Assembly: GCA_022792535.1 (NCBI GenBank)
Contig: JAAWBG010000010.1
Coordinates: forward strand, 1 to 56,655
Length of the DNA stretch: 56,655 nt
From: Lachnospiraceae bacterium
GTDB taxonomy: Bacteria; Bacillota; Clostridia; Lachnospirales; Lachnospiraceae
Direction: 5' to 3'
Part shown: positions 441 to 56,512 of the stretch, in pieces
Layout: the number at the start of each line of letters is the position of its first letter
Position numbering within the stretch: the first letter of the stretch is position 1
Notes under the pieces: model-generated
The model's input: the letters and a program-made list of their open reading frames with translations, nothing else
The model's database searches: none
What the model was told of the DNA's origin: nothing
Made by a program: the position numbers and the translations under genes

Positions 441-2222
441 ATGAACTATACGCATGATATCAACAGTACCTTGATAAATGGCTCTTATTATGGAAAAGGC
501 TGCTTTGCCTCTCCCATGAAAGAACTGAATGAGCAGACTGTTTTGGTAGAAAACAACAGGGAAAATAAAAATGACAGCTACCGTCAGAAAACAAAATATG
601 ATGACAGGGTAGACCACTACTACAGTACCTATGATTTAGGTATATTGTTGCAGAACAGTGACAGTTACCTGGAAGGGAAACTGGATACAAATGAAGATGC
701 AGACTGCTATTCCTTTTCCTATTTCCAGAAGAATTTTTATGAAAAGATGGGCTTAGAAACGGAAGTCACGATCCGTCTGGAAAATATTCCGGAGGGCTGT
801 AATTATGACCTGATTGTTTATGATATGCAGGGAAATCAGGTAGGGATAGGGAAGGATAATGGCCATGGAGGCAGGGAACTTACTCTGCCGGATTGGAATG
901 AATCAGGCCGTTATACCATTAAGGTGGAAAATCGCGGAGATGGAAATGTGAATACAGAGGCGCCTTACCGCATCCGCATTACGGAAGAACGGTATCAGAA
1001 ACAGGAGAAGACAGATGAAAGACAAGAATACACGGATGAAATTGAAAGGCTGCATAGGGAGCAATATGATTCTTTGCCGGAAGATGAACGCTATACGGGC
1101 GCGAAAAACGTGGAAGAACTGCTGGAGAAAAAAGCATCTGGTGAACGGATGGACAGTCAGGAGGAAGCATATTTGAAAATTTTTGCGAACCTGCATGATT
1201 ATGAGCGGGCGTCGGCTCAGGGCAGAATACGGAACATGTTGTTTCCGAAAATAGAGGAGGCGCTAAGAAATGCAGGGATTCATGTACAGGGGAAAGAGTT
1301 TACCATAGAAATGGATATTTATGGGGAGATAATTATTACCGGGGATTTATCAGAGGAAGAAAAACAAAAGGCCGCAGGTATATTGGAAGAACAGTTTGCC
1401 GATGAACTTTGGGACTGCCATATGCAGGCGTCAAATGATACCACAGAAGAATTTAACCGGATTAATGCTTATAAGGAACTTTCCAGTTTTCTTCGAAAAT
1501 CAACGGGAGGACAGTATTCCTGGAAGGATATTTCAGTGGATGAGAATGGAAAGATCAGGGGACTCCCTCAAAAGATGTGCCAGTTGTTAAATTCCCAGGA
1601 AAGCAATGGCAGATATGAGCAGTTAAGGGATGACATTCTGATGCTTTATGATTATGGGCGGGTGTATGGGATGGATGAACTCTCCGATTATAAAGTAAGA
1701 TATGAGGTGGCAGGATCGGACGTGAAATCATTCAAAAATGCGGTAAATTCAATGAACGAGCCGCTTATCGTCAACTGGAACGCAGTGGTTGATCCATATG
1801 GGATATTTAAGAGTTTTGCGATGGTGGAGTCTCGTCTGAAACAACTGACCGACCCAACAGCTTCTAAAAAAGATGAAGATATGGAAAAGATTGCAGAAGA
1901 GTATGCCAGGGGTAAACTTGACATACTGATAGAAAAGAAAAAAGCCATGCAGAATTCGGGAATGGCAAAAAGCTCTAGCGAGGAATACGCGGAGTATAAA
2001 GCGGCATATAACGCGTACCATTCGGAAAATGGAGAAAATTTAATAGCGGCAATGACAGGTGATGCAAAAAAAGCTTATTATATATATAAAAATATTATTG
2101 ACGGAATATCAGTCCCAATAAAAGATGCGGAATTTCTTATGCTGTACAATGGCATGATGTATTCGGCAGCCAGAAGCGAATATGTACGAAAAACAGACGA
2201 ACTGTATCATATCATGCAATAA
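441..2222 (+). CDS. Uncharacterised protein with PPC-like beta-sandwich domain
   Basis: This 593-residue protein starts at an ATG preceded by GGAGG. I do not recognise the whole protein. Residues of about 75-185 resemble a bacterial pre-peptidase C-terminal (PPC) domain: LEGKLDTNEDADCYSF, then a strand reading YDLIVYDMQGNQVG, and a final GRYTIKVENRG. PPC domains are usually secreted, yet there is no signal peptide or membrane segment here, which is odd. The rest is charged, mostly helical sequence with no catalytic motif I can name. It stands alone between a repeat-rich leader and the perR promoter. Function unknown; a structural or surface-associated role reached by a non-classical route is only a guess. 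Confidence 0.8.
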   Translation: MNYTHDINSTLINGSYYGKGCFASPMKELNEQTVLVENNRENKNDSYRQKTKYDDRVDHYYSTYDLGILLQNSDSYLEGKLDTNEDADCYSFSYFQKNFYEKMGLETEVTIRLENIPEGCNYDLIVYDMQGNQVGIGKDNGHGGRELTLPDWNESGRYTIKVENRGDGNVNTEAPYRIRITEERYQKQEKTDERQEYTDEIERLHREQYDSLPEDERYTGAKNVEELLEKKASGERMDSQEEAYLKIFANLHDYERASAQGRIRNMLFPKIEEALRNAGIHVQGKEFTIEMDIYGEIIITGDLSEEEKQKAAGILEEQFADELWDCHMQASNDTTEEFNRINAYKELSSFLRKSTGGQYSWKDISVDENGKIRGLPQKMCQLLNSQESNGRYEQLRDDILMLYDYGRVYGMDELSDYKVRYEVAGSDVKSFKNAVNSMNEPLIVNWNAVVDPYGIFKSFAMVESRLKQLTDPTASKKDEDMEKIAEEYARGKLDILIEKKKAMQNSGMAKSSSEEYAEYKAAYNAYHSENGENLIAAMTGDAKKAYYIYKNIIDGISVPIKDAEFLMLYNGMMYSAARSEYVRKTDELYHIMQ

Positions 2223-2266
2223 CATTCCGCTCTGGAAATGTGAAAATTCCTTGAAAAAATTTTATC

Positions 2267-2295
2267 TTGACAAAGGAGATTTTATAGGCTAATAT
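2267..2295 (+). promoter_or_regulatory. Promoter of the perR-hydrogenase operon
   Basis: A consensus -35 TTGACA (2267-2272) is separated by 17 bases from TAATAT (2290-2295). This is a strong vegetative-type promoter. The PerR box begins six bases after the -10 element, so a bound repressor would cover the transcription start. Confidence 0.8.
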
Positions 2296-2300
2296 TAGAA

Positions 2301-2315
2301 TTAGAATAATTCTAA
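2301..2315. promoter_or_regulatory. PerR/Fur box
   Basis: TTAGAATAATTCTAA is a perfect 7-1-7 palindrome identical to the PerR box consensus. It lies at the expected transcription start of the downstream PerR-family gene, which implies autorepression and co-repression of the hydrogenase-rubrerythrin gene. Confidence 0.85.
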
Positions 2316-2334
2316 AAAGTTCCGAGGTGATATT

Positions 2335-2697
2335 ATGACAAAGTATGCAGAAAAAATATTGAATCTGATCAATCATTCCCAGGATCATCTGACTGCAGAG
2401 GAGATTTTTCTTCTGTTGAAAAAAGAAGAGCCGAAAGTGGTTCTGGCTACGGTTTATAATAATCTGAATACTCTGTACAATGAAAGTATGATCCGTAAGG
2501 TCTGTATGGAAGGAGAGCCGGATCGCTATGACCGGATTCAAAAACATGATCATCTGGTATGCAAAAAGTGTGGAAGATTGGCGGACATTACCTTTGAGGA
2601 CTTTACACAGAAATTAGAAGACCAATTGCAGGAGGGCATTTTAAGTTATGATTTGAAAGTATTTTATATCTGTCCAGACTGTAAAGGAAAAAAATAA
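2335..2697 (+). CDS. perR: PerR-type peroxide-responsive repressor (Fur family)
   Basis: This 120-residue Fur-family protein has the winged-helix segment LATVYNNLNTL and two zinc-binding pairs, CKKC (Cys78/Cys81) and CPDC (Cys113/Cys116). The regulatory-metal ligands expected for PerR are visible: His18 in DHLTAEE, an Asp in DRYDR, His73 and His75 in HDH, and Asp86 at the position where PerR carries Asp and Fur usually Glu. That favours a peroxide sensor over an iron sensor. PerR acts by iron-catalysed histidine oxidation, which releases DNA. The gene has its own operator (2301-2315) and is 11 bases upstream of the hydrogenase-rubrerythrin gene, so the two are very likely co-transcribed. Confidence 0.88.
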   Translation: MTKYAEKILNLINHSQDHLTAEEIFLLLKKEEPKVVLATVYNNLNTLYNESMIRKVCMEGEPDRYDRIQKHDHLVCKKCGRLADITFEDFTQKLEDQLQEGILSYDLKVFYICPDCKGKK

Positions 2698-2708
2698 GGA
2701 GGTAAAAC

Positions 2709-4751
2709 ATGCAGCATTTATCCATGGATATCCGGGTTCCCATTGAGTCCGATAATCCAAGTATCACAAGAGAAGAAAAGAAATGTATTAAATGCGGAAT
2801 GTGCAAAGAAGTCTGTACCAATCAGATTGGAGTACATGGAACTTATACCTTTGAGGAGACGGAAGGCAGAGCAGTCTGTATTAATTGCGGCCAGTGCGCA
2901 AATGTCTGTCCGGCAGACAGCATTACAGAAAAGTATGAGTATCTGGATCTGCAGAAGGCCATTGCAGATCCGCAGAAAGTGGTGATTGTAAGTACTTCGC
3001 CCTCTGTGCGGGCCGCATTAGGGGAAGAATTTGGAATGGAGGACGGAAGTTTTGTCCAGGGGAAGATGGTGGCTCTGCTTCGAAAATTAGGCGTCGACTA
3101 TGTACTGGATACGAATTTTGCGGCTGATTTGACAATTATGGAAGAGGCCAGTGAGCTGATTGAGAGAATTACGAAACAGACGGGGCCCCTGCCTCAGTTT
3201 ACCAGCTGCTGTCCCGCATGGATTCGTTACTGCGAGATCTATTATCCAGAGATGATTCCTCATCTTTCTTCTGCAAAAAGTCCCATCGGAATGCAGGGGC
3301 CGACGATCAAGACATATTTTGCAAAAAAGGCGGGAATTGATCCAAAGAAAATCGTAAACGTGGCCCTTACTCCCTGTACCGCTAAAAAGTACGAGATACG
3401 AAGACCAGAGATGGATGCGTCTGGGAAGTATCATAAGGATGAAGAAATGCGTGATATGGATCTGGTGATTACCACCAGAGAATTGGCGAAATGGGCAAAA
3501 GAAGAAAAAATAGATTTTCTGGAACTGCCAGACAGCGATTATGACAATCTGATGGGAGAAGCCTCCGGTGCAGGTGTGATCTTCGGCAATACAGGAGGAG
3601 TTATGGAGGCTGCCCTGCGGACCGCTTACGAATACATAACAGGCGAAAGTGCGCCGGATGCACTGTTTCATTTTATGCCGGTGAGAGGGTATGAAGGTAT
3701 CCGGGAAGCTACTCTTAAGATCAATGAAATAGACGTCCATGTGGCAATTGTGTATGGAACAAAAAATGCAGGGGAGTTAATTCGGCAGATCAAAGAGGGC
3801 AAGAAAAAATATCATTTTGTGGAAGTGATGACCTGTCCTGGAGGATGTATTGGCGGAGGCGGCCAGCCCAAAGATATGAACAAAGATAAAGATACAGTCA
3901 GACAGGCCCGGATGGAAAGTCTTTATGCAAAAGATGAAACTATGACGCTTCGAAAAAGCCATGAAAATCCAGAGGTGAAAAAAGTTTACGAAGAATTCTA
4001 TGGAAAGCCTTTGAGTGAAATGGCCAAGAAAATGCTGCATACCTTTTATGAGGATCAAAGTAAAATAATAAATAGAAAAGGAGAGAAAAAAATGAGAACA
4101 TGGAAATGTAAAGTATGTGGTTATATTTATGAAGGAGAAAAACTGCCGGATGATTTCGTCTGCCCAGTATGTAAACAGCCAGTTTCCGCTTTTGAAGAAG
4201 TGGGAGGAAAAGCAAAACATAAATATGTAGGCACCCAGACAGAGAAGAACTTGGAGGCTGCTTTTGCAGGGGAATCTCAGGCAAGAAATAAATATACTTA
4301 TTTTGCCTCTGTGGCAAAGAAGGAGGGATATGAGCAGATTTCTTCCCTGTTTCTGAAAACAGCAGAGAATGAAAAAGAACATGCCAAAATGTGGCTGAAA
4401 GAGTTAAAAGGGATCGGAGATACTTCCCAAAATCTGACTGCTGCGGCAGAAGGGGAGAATTACGAGTGGACCGATATGTATGAGGGATTCGCGAAAACTG
4501 CAGAGGCAGAAGGATTTCCAGAGCTGGCAGAAAAATTCCGTATGGTGGGAGCCATCGAGAAACACCATGAAGAGAGATATCGTGCCCTGCTGAGAAATGT
4601 GGAGACTGCAGCAGTCTTTGAAAAGAGCGAAGTAAAAGTATGGGAATGCCGCAACTGCGGACATATCGTGGTTGGAACAAAGGCTCCAGAAGAGTGCCCC
4701 GTATGCGCGCATCCACAGAGCTACTTCGAGGTAAATGCAGAGAATTACTAA
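2709..4751 (+). CDS. [FeFe] hydrogenase fused to rubredoxin-rubrerythrin-rubredoxin
   Basis: This 680-residue polypeptide joins two enzymes. Residues 1-85 hold two [4Fe-4S] ferredoxin motifs ([21 protein letters not shown]). Residues 90-420 form the hydrogenase H-cluster domain with L1 TSCCPAW (165-171), L2 TPCTAKKYE (from 221) and L3 [13 protein letters not shown] (Cys376, Cys380). Residues 462-680 are a rubrerythrin with an N-terminal rubredoxin (CKVCG, CPVCK), a four-helix di-iron domain ([32 protein letters not shown]) and a second rubredoxin-like knuckle (CRNCG, CPVC). Known chemistry: hydrogenases exchange electrons with H2 and rubrerythrins reduce H2O2. Inference: electrons from H2 or ferredoxin reach the di-iron site to detoxify peroxide. 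The L2 Met of classical enzymes is Thr here. An internal Shine-Dalgarno and ATG (4092) could also yield free rubrerythrin. Confidence 0.88.
4079..4094 (+). promoter_or_regulatory. Internal ribosome binding site and start for the rubrerythrin module
   Basis: AGGAG (4079-4083) lies eight bases before ATG 4092, in frame with the long ORF. The ATG matches the natural N-terminus of a rubredoxin-first rubrerythrin ([11 protein letters not shown]). The preceding linker is A-rich and looks like an intergenic spacer that lacks only an in-frame stop. Confidence 0.7.
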
Positions 4752-4792
4752 GGATGGGTTAGACAGGCGGAGTTTTTAAGCCATATCTTTTT

Positions 4793-4842
4793 CTATAGGA
4801 AAGATCTTGTCACGCTAAAACGTGAAAGTGTCTTTCCTATAG
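4793..4842. repeat. Dispersed palindromic hairpin, copy 2
   Basis: The outer arms CTATAGGAAAGA (4793-4804) and TCTTTCCTATAG (4831-4842) are perfectly complementary, with inner CACG/CGTG pairs around loop CTAAAA. It shares GGAAAGA, CTTGTCACGCTAA, GTGAAAGT and TCTTTCCTATA with copy 1 at 270-321. It follows the hydrogenase-rubrerythrin gene and may serve as its 3' end. A second small inverted repeat follows (GGACAAAAT at about 4845, CCATTTTGTTC at about 4868). Confidence 0.7.
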
Positions 4843-4887
4843 AAGGACAAAATAAATGGGGACTTGTCCATTTTGTTCAAAAATTTC

Positions 4888-4916
4888 TTGACTTTAAAAT
4901 CTTACAGATGTAGTAT
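4888..4916 (+). promoter_or_regulatory. Promoter of the penicillin-binding protein gene
   Basis: TTGACT (4888-4893) and TAGTAT (4911-4916) are separated by 17 bases. The BlaI/MecI-like operator O1 overlaps the spacer and the -10 element, the usual place for a blocking repressor. Confidence 0.75.
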
Positions 4917-4918
4917 TA
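4902..4918. promoter_or_regulatory. BlaI/MecI-like operator O1
   Basis: TTACAGATGTAGTATTA closely follows the BlaI/MecI core TACAnATGTA with flanking TA-rich bases. It belongs to a repeated block (AATCTTACAnATGTA) that recurs at 4961-4975. Confidence 0.7.
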
Positions 4919-4963
4919 AATTGCATAGAGAACAATTCTCCGCAAATTTTTTTACATGAAAAT

Positions 4964-4980
4964 CTTACATATGTAATATT
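4964..4980. promoter_or_regulatory. BlaI/MecI-like operator O2
   Basis: CTTACATATGTAATATT contains the perfect palindrome TTACATATGTAA. It lies 62 bases downstream of O1 and 30 bases before the start codon at 5010. Paired operators of this kind precede bla and mec genes in Firmicutes. Confidence 0.72.
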
Positions 4981-5009
4981 AAGCGGTAAGAAAAGAAAGG
5001 AAAGATAGG

Positions 5010-7181
5010 ATGAAAAGAAAAAGCAGAAACAAAAGAAAAAAGAGGAGGGACAGGTTTCTATGGATGAAAAGGCTTGCTGTTTTGACAATTGCGGGAATCG
5101 CTGCCTTGGCTGTGACAGCCATGTTTATGGGAAAGCATGATCAGAAGGAAGCAGGGAAAACAAAGGAGGCCAGGGAACCGCAAGAGCTTTTAATCCAGTA
5201 TATGAACTATATTCCAGAGCAGAAATATGAAGAAATGTATCAAATGCTGAATCTTGAGGAATATGGCAGAATCAGCCAGGAAGATTTCATAAAGCGAAAC
5301 AGGGCCATTTATGAGGGAATGGAAGTGAAGAATCTGGAAACTGAGATTATCTCATATCAGAAGGAAAGAGAAACGGTTACTTATCAGACTTCTTTTGACA
5401 CCATTGGAGGAAGGATCTGTTTTGAAAATGAGGCGTTTTTTCTGAAAGGGGAAAATGGATATGAATTGGTATGGGATGATTCTATGATCTTTCCAGAACT
5501 GGGATTCACAGATAAGGTAAAAGTTTCCACTATACAGGCAGAACGAGGGGAGATTTTGGATCGAAATGGACGCGTGCTTGCAGGAAAAGGCACGGCTTCT
5601 TCTGTGGGAGTTGTTCTGGGAAAATTGGAAAACCGGGAAGAGGCGGTGGGGCAGATGGCGGTATTGTTAGAAATGGAGCCAGAAGCCATAGAAAAGAAGT
5701 TGTCTGTTTCCTGGGCAAAAGAGGATTCCTTTATCCCTATCCAGACCATTCCCAAGCTAAAAGAGGCAGAGCTGATGGTCTATGAAAAAAGCGGGGTAGA
5801 AAGGGTCGAACTAGAGCCAGATGAAAAGCTGCTGGCAGAGAAGGAGCGCCAAGAGAAATTATTGGAGATTCCGGGAGTGATGCTGGCGGATACTCAGGTG
5901 CGGGAATACCCCCTTGGGAAGGCGGCGGCACATTTGACCGGGTATGTGCAGAATGTGACAGCAGAAGACTTAGAAGCCCATCCAGGAGAAGGATACACTG
6001 CCGCCAGTGTGATAGGAAAAAGCGGAGCGGAAGGGCTGTTTGAGAAAGAACTGCGGGGCCGAAACGGATGCAGGATCTATATTGCAGATTCTGCCGGAAG
6101 GGAAAAAAAGGTGCTTGCAGACCAGGCGGTACAACATGGCCAGAATATTCGACTGACCATAGACGCTGATCTTCAGACTGCGTTGTACGAGCAGTTTCAG
6201 GAAGATAAAAGCTGTTCTGTGGCTATGAATCCCTATACAGGAGAAGTGCTTGCCCTGGTCAGCACGCCTTCTTATGACAGCAATGATTTCATTATGGGAT
6301 ATTCCAAAGAGCAATGGGCAGCGTTAAATGAAGATGAGAAGAAACCCATGTATAATCGTTTCCGGCAGACTTGGTGCCCAGGTTCCGTCTTTAAGCCTGT
6401 TACCGCCGCCATCGGCCTGGAATCGGGAGCGGTTGACCCCTTAGAAGATTATGGGGAAGAGGGACTGCGCTGGCAGAAGGACGGGTCCTGGGGGTCTTAT
6501 TACGTGACGACCCTTCATGCATATCGGCCTGTTATTTTGGAAAATGCTCTGATTTATTCGGACAATATCTATTTTGCAAAAGCAGCGTTGAAGATTGGAG
6601 CAGAAAAGATGTCGTCCTCTTTGTCAGAACTTGGGTTTCAGAAAGAGCTGCCTTTTGAGATTTTGATGACCAAGTCCCAATATTCAAACACAGAGTTCAT
6701 AGAAACAGAGATACAATTGGCAGACAGCGGATATGGACAAGGGCAGATCTTGATCAATCCTTTGCATATGGCATGTATTTATTCAGCCTTTTGTAATGAG
6801 GGAAATATGATCAAACCCTATCTCACCTATTCGGAGGAAAAAAGCGTTGATTACTGGATTCCGGGAGCATTTTCTAAAGAAACTGCGGATCAGATTTTAG
6901 AGGGAACAAAAAAGGTGGTAAGCGATCCCAATGGAACCGGGTATAGAGCGCGCCGGGAAGAGGTGGTTTTGGCAGGAAAAACGGGAACTGCAGAGATCAA
7001 GGCGTCTCAAAATGATGATTCCGGCACGGAACTTGGCTGGTTTGTGGTCTATACTCCTGAGAGAAATGAGGAACGTCCCATTCTGCTGGTCAGTATGGTA
7101 GAAGATGTAAAAGAAAGGGGCGGAAGCGGTTATGTGGTGGAAAAAGAGAATCTGGTGTTAGGAAAATGGTTTCATAAGTGA
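5010..7181 (+). CDS. Class B penicillin-binding protein, MecA/PBP3-like
   Basis: This 723-residue D,D-transpeptidase cross-links peptidoglycan on the outer face of the membrane. A basic N-terminus and one membrane anchor (about residues 19-41) are followed by an NTF2-like MecA_N region (about 50-155), a dimerisation domain with RGEILDRNGRVLA, and the transpeptidase domain. The active-site motifs are intact: SVFK with Ser459, SDN at 517-519 and KTGT at 657-660. The N-terminal extension is the hallmark of low-affinity subclass B3 proteins such as MecA and PBP3. Two BlaI/MecI-like operators suggest induction by cell-wall-active beta-lactams, but the cognate repressor and sensor are not in the window. 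Actual beta-lactam resistance cannot be read from the sequence. Confidence 0.88.
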   Translation: MKRKSRNKRKKRRDRFLWMKRLAVLTIAGIAALAVTAMFMGKHDQKEAGKTKEAREPQELLIQYMNYIPEQKYEEMYQMLNLEEYGRISQEDFIKRNRAIYEGMEVKNLETEIISYQKERETVTYQTSFDTIGGRICFENEAFFLKGENGYELVWDDSMIFPELGFTDKVKVSTIQAERGEILDRNGRVLAGKGTASSVGVVLGKLENREEAVGQMAVLLEMEPEAIEKKLSVSWAKEDSFIPIQTIPKLKEAELMVYEKSGVERVELEPDEKLLAEKERQEKLLEIPGVMLADTQVREYPLGKAAAHLTGYVQNVTAEDLEAHPGEGYTAASVIGKSGAEGLFEKELRGRNGCRIYIADSAGREKKVLADQAVQHGQNIRLTIDADLQTALYEQFQEDKSCSVAMNPYTGEVLALVSTPSYDSNDFIMGYSKEQWAALNEDEKKPMYNRFRQTWCPGSVFKPVTAAIGLESGAVDPLEDYGEEGLRWQKDGSWGSYYVTTLHAYRPVILENALIYSDNIYFAKAALKIGAEKMSSSLSELGFQKELPFEILMTKSQYSNTEFIETEIQLADSGYGQGQILINPLHMACIYSAFCNEGNMIKPYLTYSEEKSVDYWIPGAFSKETADQILEGTKKVVSDPNGTGYRARREEVVLAGKTGTAEIKASQNDDSGTELGWFVVYTPERNEERPILLVSMVEDVKERGGSGYVVEKENLVLGKWFHK

Positions 7182-53196: not shown

Positions 53197-53265
53197 TAAA
53201 AATAATAAGAAAATCACAGCGGCAAAATAGGAACCACAGAGATATGCGGAATGGGGAATGTTTTT

Positions 53266-56200
53266 ATGGATCGAAAAAAAATGAGTGAGAAATTTTTTAT
53301 ACAGGGAGAGGAAGTTCTGCTGGAGGAGGTTGCAGAAAAGCTGAACCAGATGGTAGAAAAGATGCCTGCTGGATGTGCTGTGGTCCGGGGAATGGAACAC
53401 TGGAAACTGATCAGCGGCAACGAAGAGTTTTTTCATGGGATAGGGTATACTTTGGAAGAACTCCAGGCAATGAAAGGTGATTTTTCTAATATTTTATACA
53501 AGGAAGATATAGAATGTCTGAAAAAGACTATGGATGAGGTGGAACACAAGAAAGAGGTGGGCCAGTGCGAGATGCGCATCTGCAAGAAGTCAGGAGAGGT
53601 GCGGTGGATTGCACTGAAAGTCCGTCTTTTTTATTATGAAGACAAAGTCCCCTGTTTTCTTGTGGCAAGCTGGGATATTCACAAACGAAAGCTGATGGAA
53701 GAGGAACTGTATCTGCAGACAGAACGGTATAAACTGATGGAGGAGATCAATCAGGAATTCCCCTTTGAATATAATGTGAAAAATAAGACGCTGTTTATTC
53801 CGGCACGCTCTAATATTATACTGGCAGATCGAAATGGAAACGACTATTATGTTCCCATAGGAATTTTAGAAAAGGTACTGCACAGAGAGGATTGTGAAAA
53901 ATTTTTTCAGGTGATTGATCGTGCTTCTAAGGAGGAAGAGCACGGTATTTTGGAGTATCGGGTGAATATTGCAAAGGACGGAGAAAGACCGGAATATGCA
54001 TGGCACAGAACCAGCTATAAAAGCATTCGGGGCGTGGACAGCAAAATTGTGCGGATTCTGGGCAGAACAGAGGATATTACCAGAGACCGGATTCTGCAGG
54101 ATGAGATGGCTCAGAGACTGAAGCGGGATGATCTGATCGGCTTGCTGAATAAGCCGGCTACGAAAGGGGAGATCGAAGCATTTTTAAGGAGCAATCCAGA
54201 CGGAACCCATGCGCTGTTTCTGGTGGATATTGATAATTTTAAATATGTGAATGACACGTTGGGGCATTTGTTTGGAGATAATGTGTTGGTGAATATTGGC
54301 AAAAAGATTCAGGGATTGTTCCGGGGAACTGACGTAATTGGAAGAATCGGCGGGGATGAGTTTTTAATTCTGATGAAGCACACAGATTCTTTTCAGGCGA
54401 AAGCAAAGGCTCAAAATATTTGTGATACCCTTTATCAGACTTATCACGGCAGGAATCAGGAAGAGGTGGAGATAAGCTGCAGCGTGGGCGTTGCCATGTA
54501 TGGAACCATAAGAGAAAGTTACACTTCTTTGTTTTCCAAAGCAGATATGGCCATGTATCAGGCCAAAGAAGCGGGGAAGAATCAGTACTGTGTGGCTGAG
54601 ATTGCAGATCCCATGTGGAAGACCAGGAAGGTGACTAAGATTGAGACGGGAAGCGGCCATTATAAAGCAGGAAAAGTACAGGATATGGATTTTATCTCAG
54701 AGGCATTTACTTTACTTTCTCATGCCAAGGATGTGAATGATTCGCTGAATCTTTTGATGGAGCGGATTGGAAGGCAGTATGATCTGGGAAGAGTGGCTGT
54801 ATTAGAATGCGACAGGGAAAAGAGAGAACTGATTCAGACCAATTGCTGGACCAGAGAGAATGGAATTCTGCGGGAGCCTCAGTTTATAGATAAATATGAG
54901 AATTGGGATGGTTTTTTCCAGGGATTTAACGAGTGGGGGCTGGCCTGTATCAATGACTGCCTGGGAGATGAGGAGGTTTCGGAGTCAGATAAAGAAGTAT
55001 TTCGTGAGCGGAAAATGCGGGCGATTGTCAACTGCAGTTTTTCTTATTTTGAGTTGGGAGAAGGGTATGTGTCGTTCTGCGATCTGGAAAAGCCCCGGTT
55101 ATGGACCGATTTTGAGAAAGAGACCTTTCTGGAATTGTCTAAAATGCTTTCTGTATTTGTGGCGCTTCGGGTACAGCAGGAGGAAGACCAAAGGGCGATC
55201 CGGCATTTGAAGAAGAGAGATCCTCTCACAGGGCTTTACATTGAGGAAGCATTTAAAAGCAGAGTGAAAAGAGAGCTGGAAAATTGGAGAGAAGACAAAG
55301 AATATGCCATTATCTATACAGATATCAATGATTTTTCCTATATCAATGATAATTTTGGACATGCGGCCGGAAATGAGATTTTGAAGAGCTTTGCATCCCT
55401 GATTCAGGGAAGGGATTATATGGTTTCCTGCCGGTTATATTCTGATTTGTTTATTACGTTTTTGTGGGATACCGACCGGGAATCTATTCTGCAGAAAATT
55501 GTAGACAGCAGCTTGTATTTCAGCAGAAAACAAAAGAAGATCTATCCTTCCTGCAATATCAGGCTGACTACCGGAATTTATTTTATGGAAGAGAAAGATG
55601 AGAATTTAGATATGGCCATTGAGAATGCCAATCTTACCAGAAAGAGCATTAAGGGCAACAGCAGCGCTTTCTGCCGGGTGTATGAGAGCAGAATGCGCAG
55701 TCAGCGGGAGGAGGAGAAAAAAGTACTGGCAGAATTTCAGAGTACTTTGGAAGCAGGCGGATTCCAGGTGTATGTGCAGCCTAAATTCTACCTTTCTCAA
55801 TTCCAGGTTTCCGGCGGAGAGGCGCTGGTGCGTTGGAAAAAGAAAAGCGGAAAGATCGTGTCTCCAGGCATGTTTATTCCTGTGCTGGAAAAGTCCGGCT
55901 ATATTGTGGAACTGGATTTCTATGTGTATGAGCAGGTATTGATTTATATGAGAAACTGGATGGGGGCAGGAAAAGAACCGCCGATTATTTCCGTGAATTT
56001 TTCCAGAAGCCATTTTGAAAAAAATGGAATTTATCAGCGGATTATCTCGTTGACAGAATCTTATCAGGTGGATCCCAAATACATTGAGATAGAGATTACG
56101 GAGAGCTTGTTTGTGACGGGATATGATCTGGTGAAAACGGAAGTGCAAAAGCTTCGGGAAGCTGGATTTCGGGTAGCCATCGACGATTTTGGAACAGGGT

Positions 56201-56472
56201 ATTCTTCTTTGGGAATGCTTCTTGATATTCCGGCGGATATTGTAAAGATTGACCGGAGCTTTTTGAATCGGGAAAATGCGGGAAATGCTAAGGAATTTAT
56301 TCAAAATGTGGGCAGGCTGATTGAGAGTGTCAAAGAGGAAGTTATTTTTGAGGGAATTGAGACTGAGGAGCAGCGGAAATTCTTGATAGACTGCGGATTC
56401 CGCTTTGGTCAGGGATTTCTCTTTGACCGCCCTATGCCTATTGAGGTGTTTCAAGAAAAATACATGAAATAA
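53266..56472 (+). CDS. PAS-PAS-GGDEF-GAF-(GGDEF)-EAL cyclic-di-GMP protein
   Basis: The 1068-residue product starts at ATG 53266 (GGGGA eight bases before; ATG 53251 in frame is less likely). Two PAS-like domains (about 30-150 and 165-285) precede a GGDEF domain with intact RIGGDEF (362-366). A GAF-like region (about 490-640) leads to a second GGDEF-like domain whose site reads YSDLF near 725 and must be inactive as a cyclase. A C-terminal EAL domain has EALVRW (Glu852), VNFSRSHF, IEITES, DDFGTGYSS, KIDRSF and EGIET, so it looks catalytically complete. It could make and degrade c-di-GMP. No membrane segment: a cytoplasmic sensor. Confidence 0.92.
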   Translation: MDRKKMSEKFFIQGEEVLLEEVAEKLNQMVEKMPAGCAVVRGMEHWKLISGNEEFFHGIGYTLEELQAMKGDFSNILYKEDIECLKKTMDEVEHKKEVGQCEMRICKKSGEVRWIALKVRLFYYEDKVPCFLVASWDIHKRKLMEEELYLQTERYKLMEEINQEFPFEYNVKNKTLFIPARSNIILADRNGNDYYVPIGILEKVLHREDCEKFFQVIDRASKEEEHGILEYRVNIAKDGERPEYAWHRTSYKSIRGVDSKIVRILGRTEDITRDRILQDEMAQRLKRDDLIGLLNKPATKGEIEAFLRSNPDGTHALFLVDIDNFKYVNDTLGHLFGDNVLVNIGKKIQGLFRGTDVIGRIGGDEFLILMKHTDSFQAKAKAQNICDTLYQTYHGRNQEEVEISCSVGVAMYGTIRESYTSLFSKADMAMYQAKEAGKNQYCVAEIADPMWKTRKVTKIETGSGHYKAGKVQDMDFISEAFTLLSHAKDVNDSLNLLMERIGRQYDLGRVAVLECDREKRELIQTNCWTRENGILREPQFIDKYENWDGFFQGFNEWGLACINDCLGDEEVSESDKEVFRERKMRAIVNCSFSYFELGEGYVSFCDLEKPRLWTDFEKETFLELSKMLSVFVALRVQQEEDQRAIRHLKKRDPLTGLYIEEAFKSRVKRELENWREDKEYAIIYTDINDFSYINDNFGHAAGNEILKSFASLIQGRDYMVSCRLYSDLFITFLWDTDRESILQKIVDSSLYFSRKQKKIYPSCNIRLTTGIYFMEEKDENLDMAIENANLTRKSIKGNSSAFCRVYESRMRSQREEEKKVLAEFQSTLEAGGFQVYVQPKFYLSQFQVSGGEALVRWKKKSGKIVSPGMFIPVLEKSGYIVELDFYVYEQVLIYMRNWMGAGKEPPIISVNFSRSHFEKNGIYQRIISLTESYQVDPKYIEIEITESLFVTGYDLVKTEVQKLREAGFRVAIDDFGTGYSSLGMLLDIPADIVKIDRSFLNRENAGNAKEFIQNVGRLIESVKEEVIFEGIETEEQRKFLIDCGFRFGQGFLFDRPMPIEVFQEKYMK

Positions 56473-56483
56473 GCTGAAAACTA

Positions 56484-56512
56484 TTGATTTTTTGCGCTAT
56501 AATTATTATAGT
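56484..56512 (+). promoter_or_regulatory. Promoter of the gene at the right edge
   Basis: TTGATT (56484-56489) and TATAGT (56507-56512) are separated by 17 bases. The transcript would start near 56519, just before the folded leader. Confidence 0.7.

Follow-up and report, generated by a model that had tools for sequence, protein, structure and literature searches.

The hydR locus and its regulator

The window, by which we mean the whole stretch of 56,655 nucleotides of Lachnospiraceae DNA that was analyzed, contains an open reading frame, hydR, which starts 11 nt 3' of the end of a gene for a Fur-family regulator (Table 1). The modules of the HydR protein are arranged in the order two ferredoxin-like cysteine sets, H-cluster domain, small-subunit domain, linker, rubredoxin, erythrin and second rubredoxin. 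In the Pfam search, matches were obtained to Fe_hyd_lg_C (residues 90-384, E 1e-94), Fe_hyd_SSU (396-449), Rubrerythrin (513-628) and RUBY_RBDX, the latter in two stretches of which the best covers residues 645-674. The curated cut-offs for group A [FeFe] hydrogenases (TIGR02512, 490 vs. 405.95 bits) and for rubrerythrin (NF045767, 271.7 vs. 200 bits) were both passed, in agreement with Pfam, and the claim of the earlier note that a hydrogenase and a rubrerythrin are joined in one frame is thereby borne out. The cut-offs for group B1 (TIGR04105, 146.6 vs. 450 bits) and for group A6 were missed by the window hydrogenase, and a group B identity is ruled out by the curated cut-offs.

Table 1. Features of the hydR locus and their coordinates in the window.
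Feature	Position	Strand	Remarks
Sigma-70-like promoter, TTGACA-17-TAATAT	2267..2295	+	Consensus match only; 11 promoter-like sites in 1900-5100 vs. 6.7 expected
PerR-like box TTAGAATAATTCTAA, perfect 7-1-7 palindrome	2301..2315	+	Just 3' of the -10 element; consensus match
Fur-family regulator, PerR-type, 120 aa	2335..2697	+	Pfam FUR, 82.7 bits vs. cut-off 23.1
hydR, [FeFe] hydrogenase-rubrerythrin fusion	2709..4751	+	680 aa, ATG start, no internal stop
Two [4Fe-4S] cysteine sets, C26-C29-C32-C36 and C57-C60-C63-C67	2784..2909	+	8/8 Cys invariant in 21 aligned fusions
H-cluster domain and small-subunit domain	2976..4055	+	Pfam, alignment of fusions
Linker, residues 454-462	4068..4094	+	Low-confidence model region; 454-464 below pLDDT 50
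AGGAG core, internal Shine-Dalgarno-like site	4079..4083	+	8 nt 5' of the internal ATG
Proposed second product, free rubrerythrin, 219 aa from Met462, rubredoxin-erythrin-rubredoxin	4092..4751	+	Predicted; matches stand-alone rubrerythrins
Long hairpin 3' of hydR, possible terminator or mRNA end	4788..4847	+	-33.7 kcal/mol, z -5.5

The ferredoxin motifs, H-cluster domain and di-iron module named in the earlier note were all confirmed, with every metal-ligand residue present. Invariant in the 21 aligned fusions are the cysteines of both rubredoxin centers (C467/470/485/488 and C647/650/663/666) and the residues E522, E555, H558, E583, E586, E617 and H620, which we take to be the iron-binding glutamates and histidines of the erythrin. 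The H-cluster motifs L1, L2 and L3, as defined in the legend to Figure 1 of PMC11926857, are present in the window HydR with cysteines that are likewise invariant among the 21 fusions, with the difference that L3 reads MTC in the window protein and MAC in that legend. Alignment to the rubrerythrin of D. vulgaris (1b71) revealed a 13-residue gap in the erythrin, which is thus of the loop-less, dimeric type. The predicted structure of the single chain is of moderate confidence (mean pLDDT 68.5).

The genome from which the window derives also encodes the maturase HydG, and contains four further matches to PF02906 and three further rubrerythrin-family loci, one of which is a 216-aa frame of the plain type. 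Elsewhere in the window, a 593-aa ORF before the regulator (441-2222, +) matched nothing in Pfam or NCBIfam at E 0.001, and positions 5010-7181 (+) encode a transpeptidase with MecA_N, PBP_dimer and Transpeptidase domains, which resembles the PBP4(5)/PBP2a-type proteins but scores lower than each of the NCBIfam cut-offs shown for them. A further palindrome of PerR-like type, CTATAATTATTATAG, is located at 56497-56511, just 3' of the gene for a PAS/GGDEF/EAL protein (53251-56472).

According to the earlier note, the fusion lies behind perR and under a PerR box. There is indeed a Fur-family gene upstream, but because it passed the Pfam FUR cut-off and missed the NCBIfam PerR cut-offs (best PerR model 66.8 vs. 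180 bits), perR is a likely and not a curated name. We compared the box to two PerR-box consensus patterns. It fits the relaxed pattern TTAKAATNATTMTAA with zero mismatches and is the sole match to it in the window at ≤1 mismatch, as compared to 0.09 expected, whereas it has 2 mismatches to the stricter pattern TTATAATNATTATAA, for which the 9 window matches at ≤3 mismatches are no excess over the 5.5 expected. The box is located before perR, about 400 nt 5' of hydR, and covers the site where a perR-hydR transcript would presumably begin. Among 34 fused loci, which include the window itself, three fusions without erythrin and some loci with short upstream sequence, a Fur-type homolog was identified upstream of hydR in 13, and a box (≤2 mismatches, ≥6 of 7 palindromic pairs) in 12 including the divergent box of L018, the latter count being made without a shuffled control. 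Taken as a whole, hydR is likely to be under PerR-type control.

Relatives of the fusion

A chimera of this type from Clostridium perfringens, CperHydR, has been purified, and in the text of PMC11926857 (2025) it is described as reducing H2O2 under H2, not measurably so under CO, and as oxidizing H2 with almost no H2 evolution; the artificial rubrerythrin half of CperHydR also reduced H2O2. Since its erythrin lacks the 13-residue loop, it is taken to be a homodimer by the authors, who credit Calusinska et al. with having proposed hydrogenase-rubrerythrin fusions from genomes (PMC11926857). Like CperHydR as presented there, the window HydR is a single chain with two [4Fe-4S] sites, an H-cluster domain, two rubredoxins and a loop-less erythrin. 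The L2 motifs of both are of the TPCTAKK[FY]E type; the window HydR, the hydrogenase of which is of the H2-uptake type, has TPCTAKKYE, the motif quoted in the same text for the H2-uptake enzyme CpII. The window copy differs from CperHydR, as the latter is described in the paper, in coming from another organism and in following a PerR-type gene.

The function demonstrated for this architecture in C. perfringens (PMC11926857) lends support to the suggestion in the earlier note of an H2:peroxide oxidoreductase, and by analogy the window ORF very probably encodes such an enzyme. The novelty of the arrangement had been left to be checked against proteins of the same architecture, and here the answer is that it has already been described under the name HydR (PMC11926857), with 38 non-redundant hydrogenase-erythrin fusions compared in this study. 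The hydrogenase-rubrerythrin fusion is an already known kind and not a new one, and the window hydR adds one member to it as well as a link to a PerR-type regulator.

Both halves also occur separately. Unfused CpII-type H2-uptake [FeFe] hydrogenases have the same L2 motif as the window protein but no rubrerythrin module, and the unfused relatives of the hydrogenase half in the searched genomes are 53-77% identical to it. Stand-alone rubrerythrins with an N-terminal and a C-terminal rubredoxin consist of the same modules, encoded by a separate gene with its own start, and reach identities of about 83% across the rubredoxin-erythrin-rubredoxin segment, for example in L023.

Homologs were collected from a search of a contig collection (best 80 of 589 loci), from 299 genomes of the family, 392 of the order, 391 of the class and 206 of the family of G698, and from plasmid records, with overlap among these draws. 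The family of G698 was taken to be the Clostridiaceae because this genome has a Clostridium-type hydrogenase over the cut-off of NF040762. Near-copies (L086, L089, L093, L094, L117, L119) were dropped from the fusion set and the second fusion of genome G086 was left out, as were L021, L022, L112-L115 and L136, the orientation of which was not resolved by the script. Two loci, L124 and L125, end at a contig end.

The same open fusion was found in independent genomes, and also in plasmid records called complete, so that an assembly artefact, in the form of a lost stop or a frameshift between the modules as considered in the earlier note, is ruled out. Five plasmid records contain the fusion, from Paraclostridium bifermentans and Cetobacterium somerae; in four of these the gene is listed only as "rubrerythrin", which hides the hydrogenase half in the annotation, and in the fifth, where the frame is interrupted, no gene is listed at that position. 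The HydR genes L161, L162, L163 and L165 are located on large plasmids of these two species. Module layouts vary in some loci. In L018, a rubredoxin precedes the hydrogenase and the erythrin follows it, while L150 and L151 have an extra rubredoxin preceding the erythrin. The same hydrogenase is followed by several rubredoxins without erythrin in L101 and L154, and by one rubredoxin only in L126 and L133.

Fused and unfused forms are interleaved in the hydrogenase tree, with at least 12 changes of which 8 are forced by well-supported branches, and fusions and stand-alone proteins are interleaved in the erythrin tree, from which L098 and L125 are absent, with 13 changes of which 5 are forced, both trees having been inferred by a quick method and containing many weakly supported forks. 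This interleaving in both trees indicates that fusion or fission has recurred. A single ancient fusion is supported by neither tree.

The joint between hydrogenase and rubrerythrin

In the window hydR, an in-frame ATG (4092-4094, Met462) opens the rubredoxin at the joint. We defined the joint start as the last ATG, GTG or TTG in the 14 codons that precede the first rubredoxin cysteine, except in L018, L147-L151, L161 and L162, where a motif recognized beforehand was used to place it, and found an ATG opening the rubrerythrin module in 36 of the 38 non-redundant fusions. The Shine-Dalgarno energy at these 36 starts has a mean of -8.98 kcal/mol, whereas the 686 other Met codons in frame within these ORFs average -2.72; a value of -5 was reached at 35 of the former and 161 of the latter, and the spacing from core to ATG is 6-12 nt. 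In a set of 36 fusions, 34 of which have the start, the mean at the joint (-8.87) is close to the means at the start of hydR itself (-9.18, n = 36) and of stand-alone rubrerythrin genes (-9.71, n = 56), each of the latter values being the best of several candidate codons. The local mRNA structure is weaker at the joint than at other Met codons (-1.8 vs. -8.2 kcal/mol per 50 nt). Exceptions are L122, in which the Shine-Dalgarno site is kept and the ATG lost, L125, which has neither, and L017, which has a weak site (-2.9).

The linkers vary in length and sequence among the fusions, whereas their ends are alike at the DNA level. Of 37 fused pairs that were compared, 36 have the same base at only 22-56% of their four-fold degenerate sites, the exception being L088/L090. 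The first glycine within seven codons before the ATG is encoded by GGA in 29 of the 30 fusions that have one, where the codon use of these ORFs would predict 12.4 (P 2e-11). When the linker amino acids were fixed, codon shuffles had an average of -6.3 as compared to the observed -8.45, with 2 of 32 loci (including three fusions without erythrin) individually below 0.05 and a combined P of 0.016; these P values are too small since the sequences are related and not independent.

Loci outside the 38 fusions provide additional joints. The sites of the near-copies L163 and L165 score -10.2 and -11.5, and L098, which like L164 has an interrupted hydrogenase half, has an ATG and a site of -7.8. For the fusions without erythrin (L030, L101, L102, L126, L133, L139, L154), the sites are -11.6 for L030, which has a GTG, -7.4 for L101, -5.3 for L102 and -3.1 for L154.

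No conserved internal start in HydR was found in print among the open-access papers searched. The words internal, start codon, truncat, PerR, heterodimer and Shine are all absent from the main text of PMC11926857, and a second start is thus not discussed for CperHydR in that text. A comparable case is Cas11b, a short C-terminal product made in the same frame from inside cas8b, which has been shown experimentally and helps complex formation, as described in PMC11899642; the window likewise combines a long protein with a short C-terminal product, for a redox enzyme and as a sequence-based prediction only. The new element at this locus is the conserved internal start, which probably makes the fusion a two-product gene.

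Alternative readings and proposed mechanism

The joint sites could instead be relics. Only the full-length protein would then matter, and the Shine-Dalgarno site and ATG would be uneroded remains of a rubrerythrin gene that became fused, with fusions arising repeatedly. The recurrent fusion or fission in both trees favors relics, and so do the site without ATG in L122, the loss of both elements in L125, which groups with L124 in the hydrogenase tree, and the observation that much of the strength of the joint site follows from the linker amino acids. In contrast, all members of L007/L116, L121/L123 and L095/L096/L120, which are placed together with strong support in both trees, have retained the ATG together with a site that reaches at least -5 in strength, despite an agreement at four-fold sites of only 37-55% within these groups, and the near-uniform use of GGA also argues against relics. 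Two further groups are less clear-cut: both elements, at this strength, are kept in L118/L124, next to which L125 has lost them, and in L091/L092, which form an unresolved fork with the unfused L100. Judging from this conservation, we consider relics the main rival but the less likely one, and an internal start that is used and selected the more probable explanation.

Another possibility concerns the chemistry, in that the physiological acceptor or donor may be different, with the fusion mainly reducing O2 or using electrons from ferredoxin instead of H2. The rubrerythrins of some clostridia act in O2 defense, and the [4Fe-4S] clusters could in principle accept electrons from ferredoxin. Against this stand the turnover of H2O2 with H2 by CperHydR and its near lack of H2 evolution, as given in the text of PMC11926857, and the TPC-T-A-K-K type L2 motif that the window protein shares with it. 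We regard a different acceptor or donor as improbable. Most improbable of all is that the joint serves as a programmed pause, in line with proposals that Shine-Dalgarno-like stretches within genes slow the ribosome, here while the hydrogenase half folds, or that a K/G/E-rich linker is conserved for itself, as its short and similar form at the protein level (LGG-x-[KNE]-M) in the compared Clostridiaceae, Paraclostridium and Cetobacterium fusions might suggest, since a pause does not need a start codon at 6-12 nt, yet the ATG is there in 36 of 38 fusions, and since linkers vary widely in length and sequence and residues 454-464 are modeled with low confidence.

The reading that we prefer, with a somewhat better than even prospect of being correct as a whole, is that the window HydR is an H2-dependent H2O2 reductase with a second translation start. 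As shown for the homolog, the H-cluster would be where H2 is cleaved and the di-iron site, in the same protein, where H2O2 is reduced, and the electrons would pass through the two [4Fe-4S] clusters and the rubredoxin centers in between. The regulator bound at 2301-2315 would hold perR-hydR off until it is oxidized by peroxide. Ribosomes that start from 2709 would make the full HydR, while ribosomes that load on the Shine-Dalgarno-like site at the joint would, as the conservation suggests, start at Met462 and make the free 219-aa rubrerythrin from the same mRNA. Judging from the sequences, this free rubrerythrin is reasonably likely to be made in a meaningful amount. The short product could be functional because the artificial rubrerythrin half of CperHydR reduced H2O2 (text of PMC11926857); a point against a second product is that other rubrerythrin-family genes are present, so that free rubrerythrin is not lacking in this genome.

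The description of the enzyme in the earlier note as self-contained may thus be incomplete, because the conservation of the internal start points to additional, separate synthesis of the rubrerythrin half, and because the erythrin is without the loop, an absence that PMC11926857 links to dimers. Given this dimeric type of erythrin, a free chain might associate with a HydR chain and so determine the ratio of hydrogenase to peroxidase, but such mixed dimers are speculative and rather doubtful.

Rubrerythrin modules were also identified in frame behind other partners: a rubredoxin and a glutamate-synthase-type FMN domain (L031, L061, L062, L076, L084 and, at a contig end, L054), a two-cluster ferredoxin (second ORF of L030, L032, L083) and a flavin reductase domain (L048), with the partner domains assigned by Pfam for L061, L030 and L048 and by sequence resemblance for the remaining loci. 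An ATG with a site of -5 or stronger is present at the joint in 8 of these 10 fusions, with a weaker site in L076 (-2.9) and none in L048. A broader and tentative proposal, to which we give a little less than an even chance, is that HydR genes across the Clostridia, Fusobacteriota and others are dual-product genes, in which free rubrerythrin would be made from a selected internal start, in a fixed proportion to the H2-driven enzyme, and a single hydrogenase could supply a shared pair of rubrerythrins through mixed dimers. The recurrence of this device in the FMN-domain and ferredoxin fusions would make rubrerythrin a portable module, one that retains its own start when placed behind different electron donors.

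Use of the internal start would mean that two proteins are made from HydR loci, and the dimers, stoichiometry and in vitro rates of HydR would have to be reread. It would help to explain the frequent interchange between fused and separate genes, since either form still makes rubrerythrin, and it would allow the balance that cells strike between an O2-sensitive hydrogenase and a robust peroxidase to be examined in a simple bench test.
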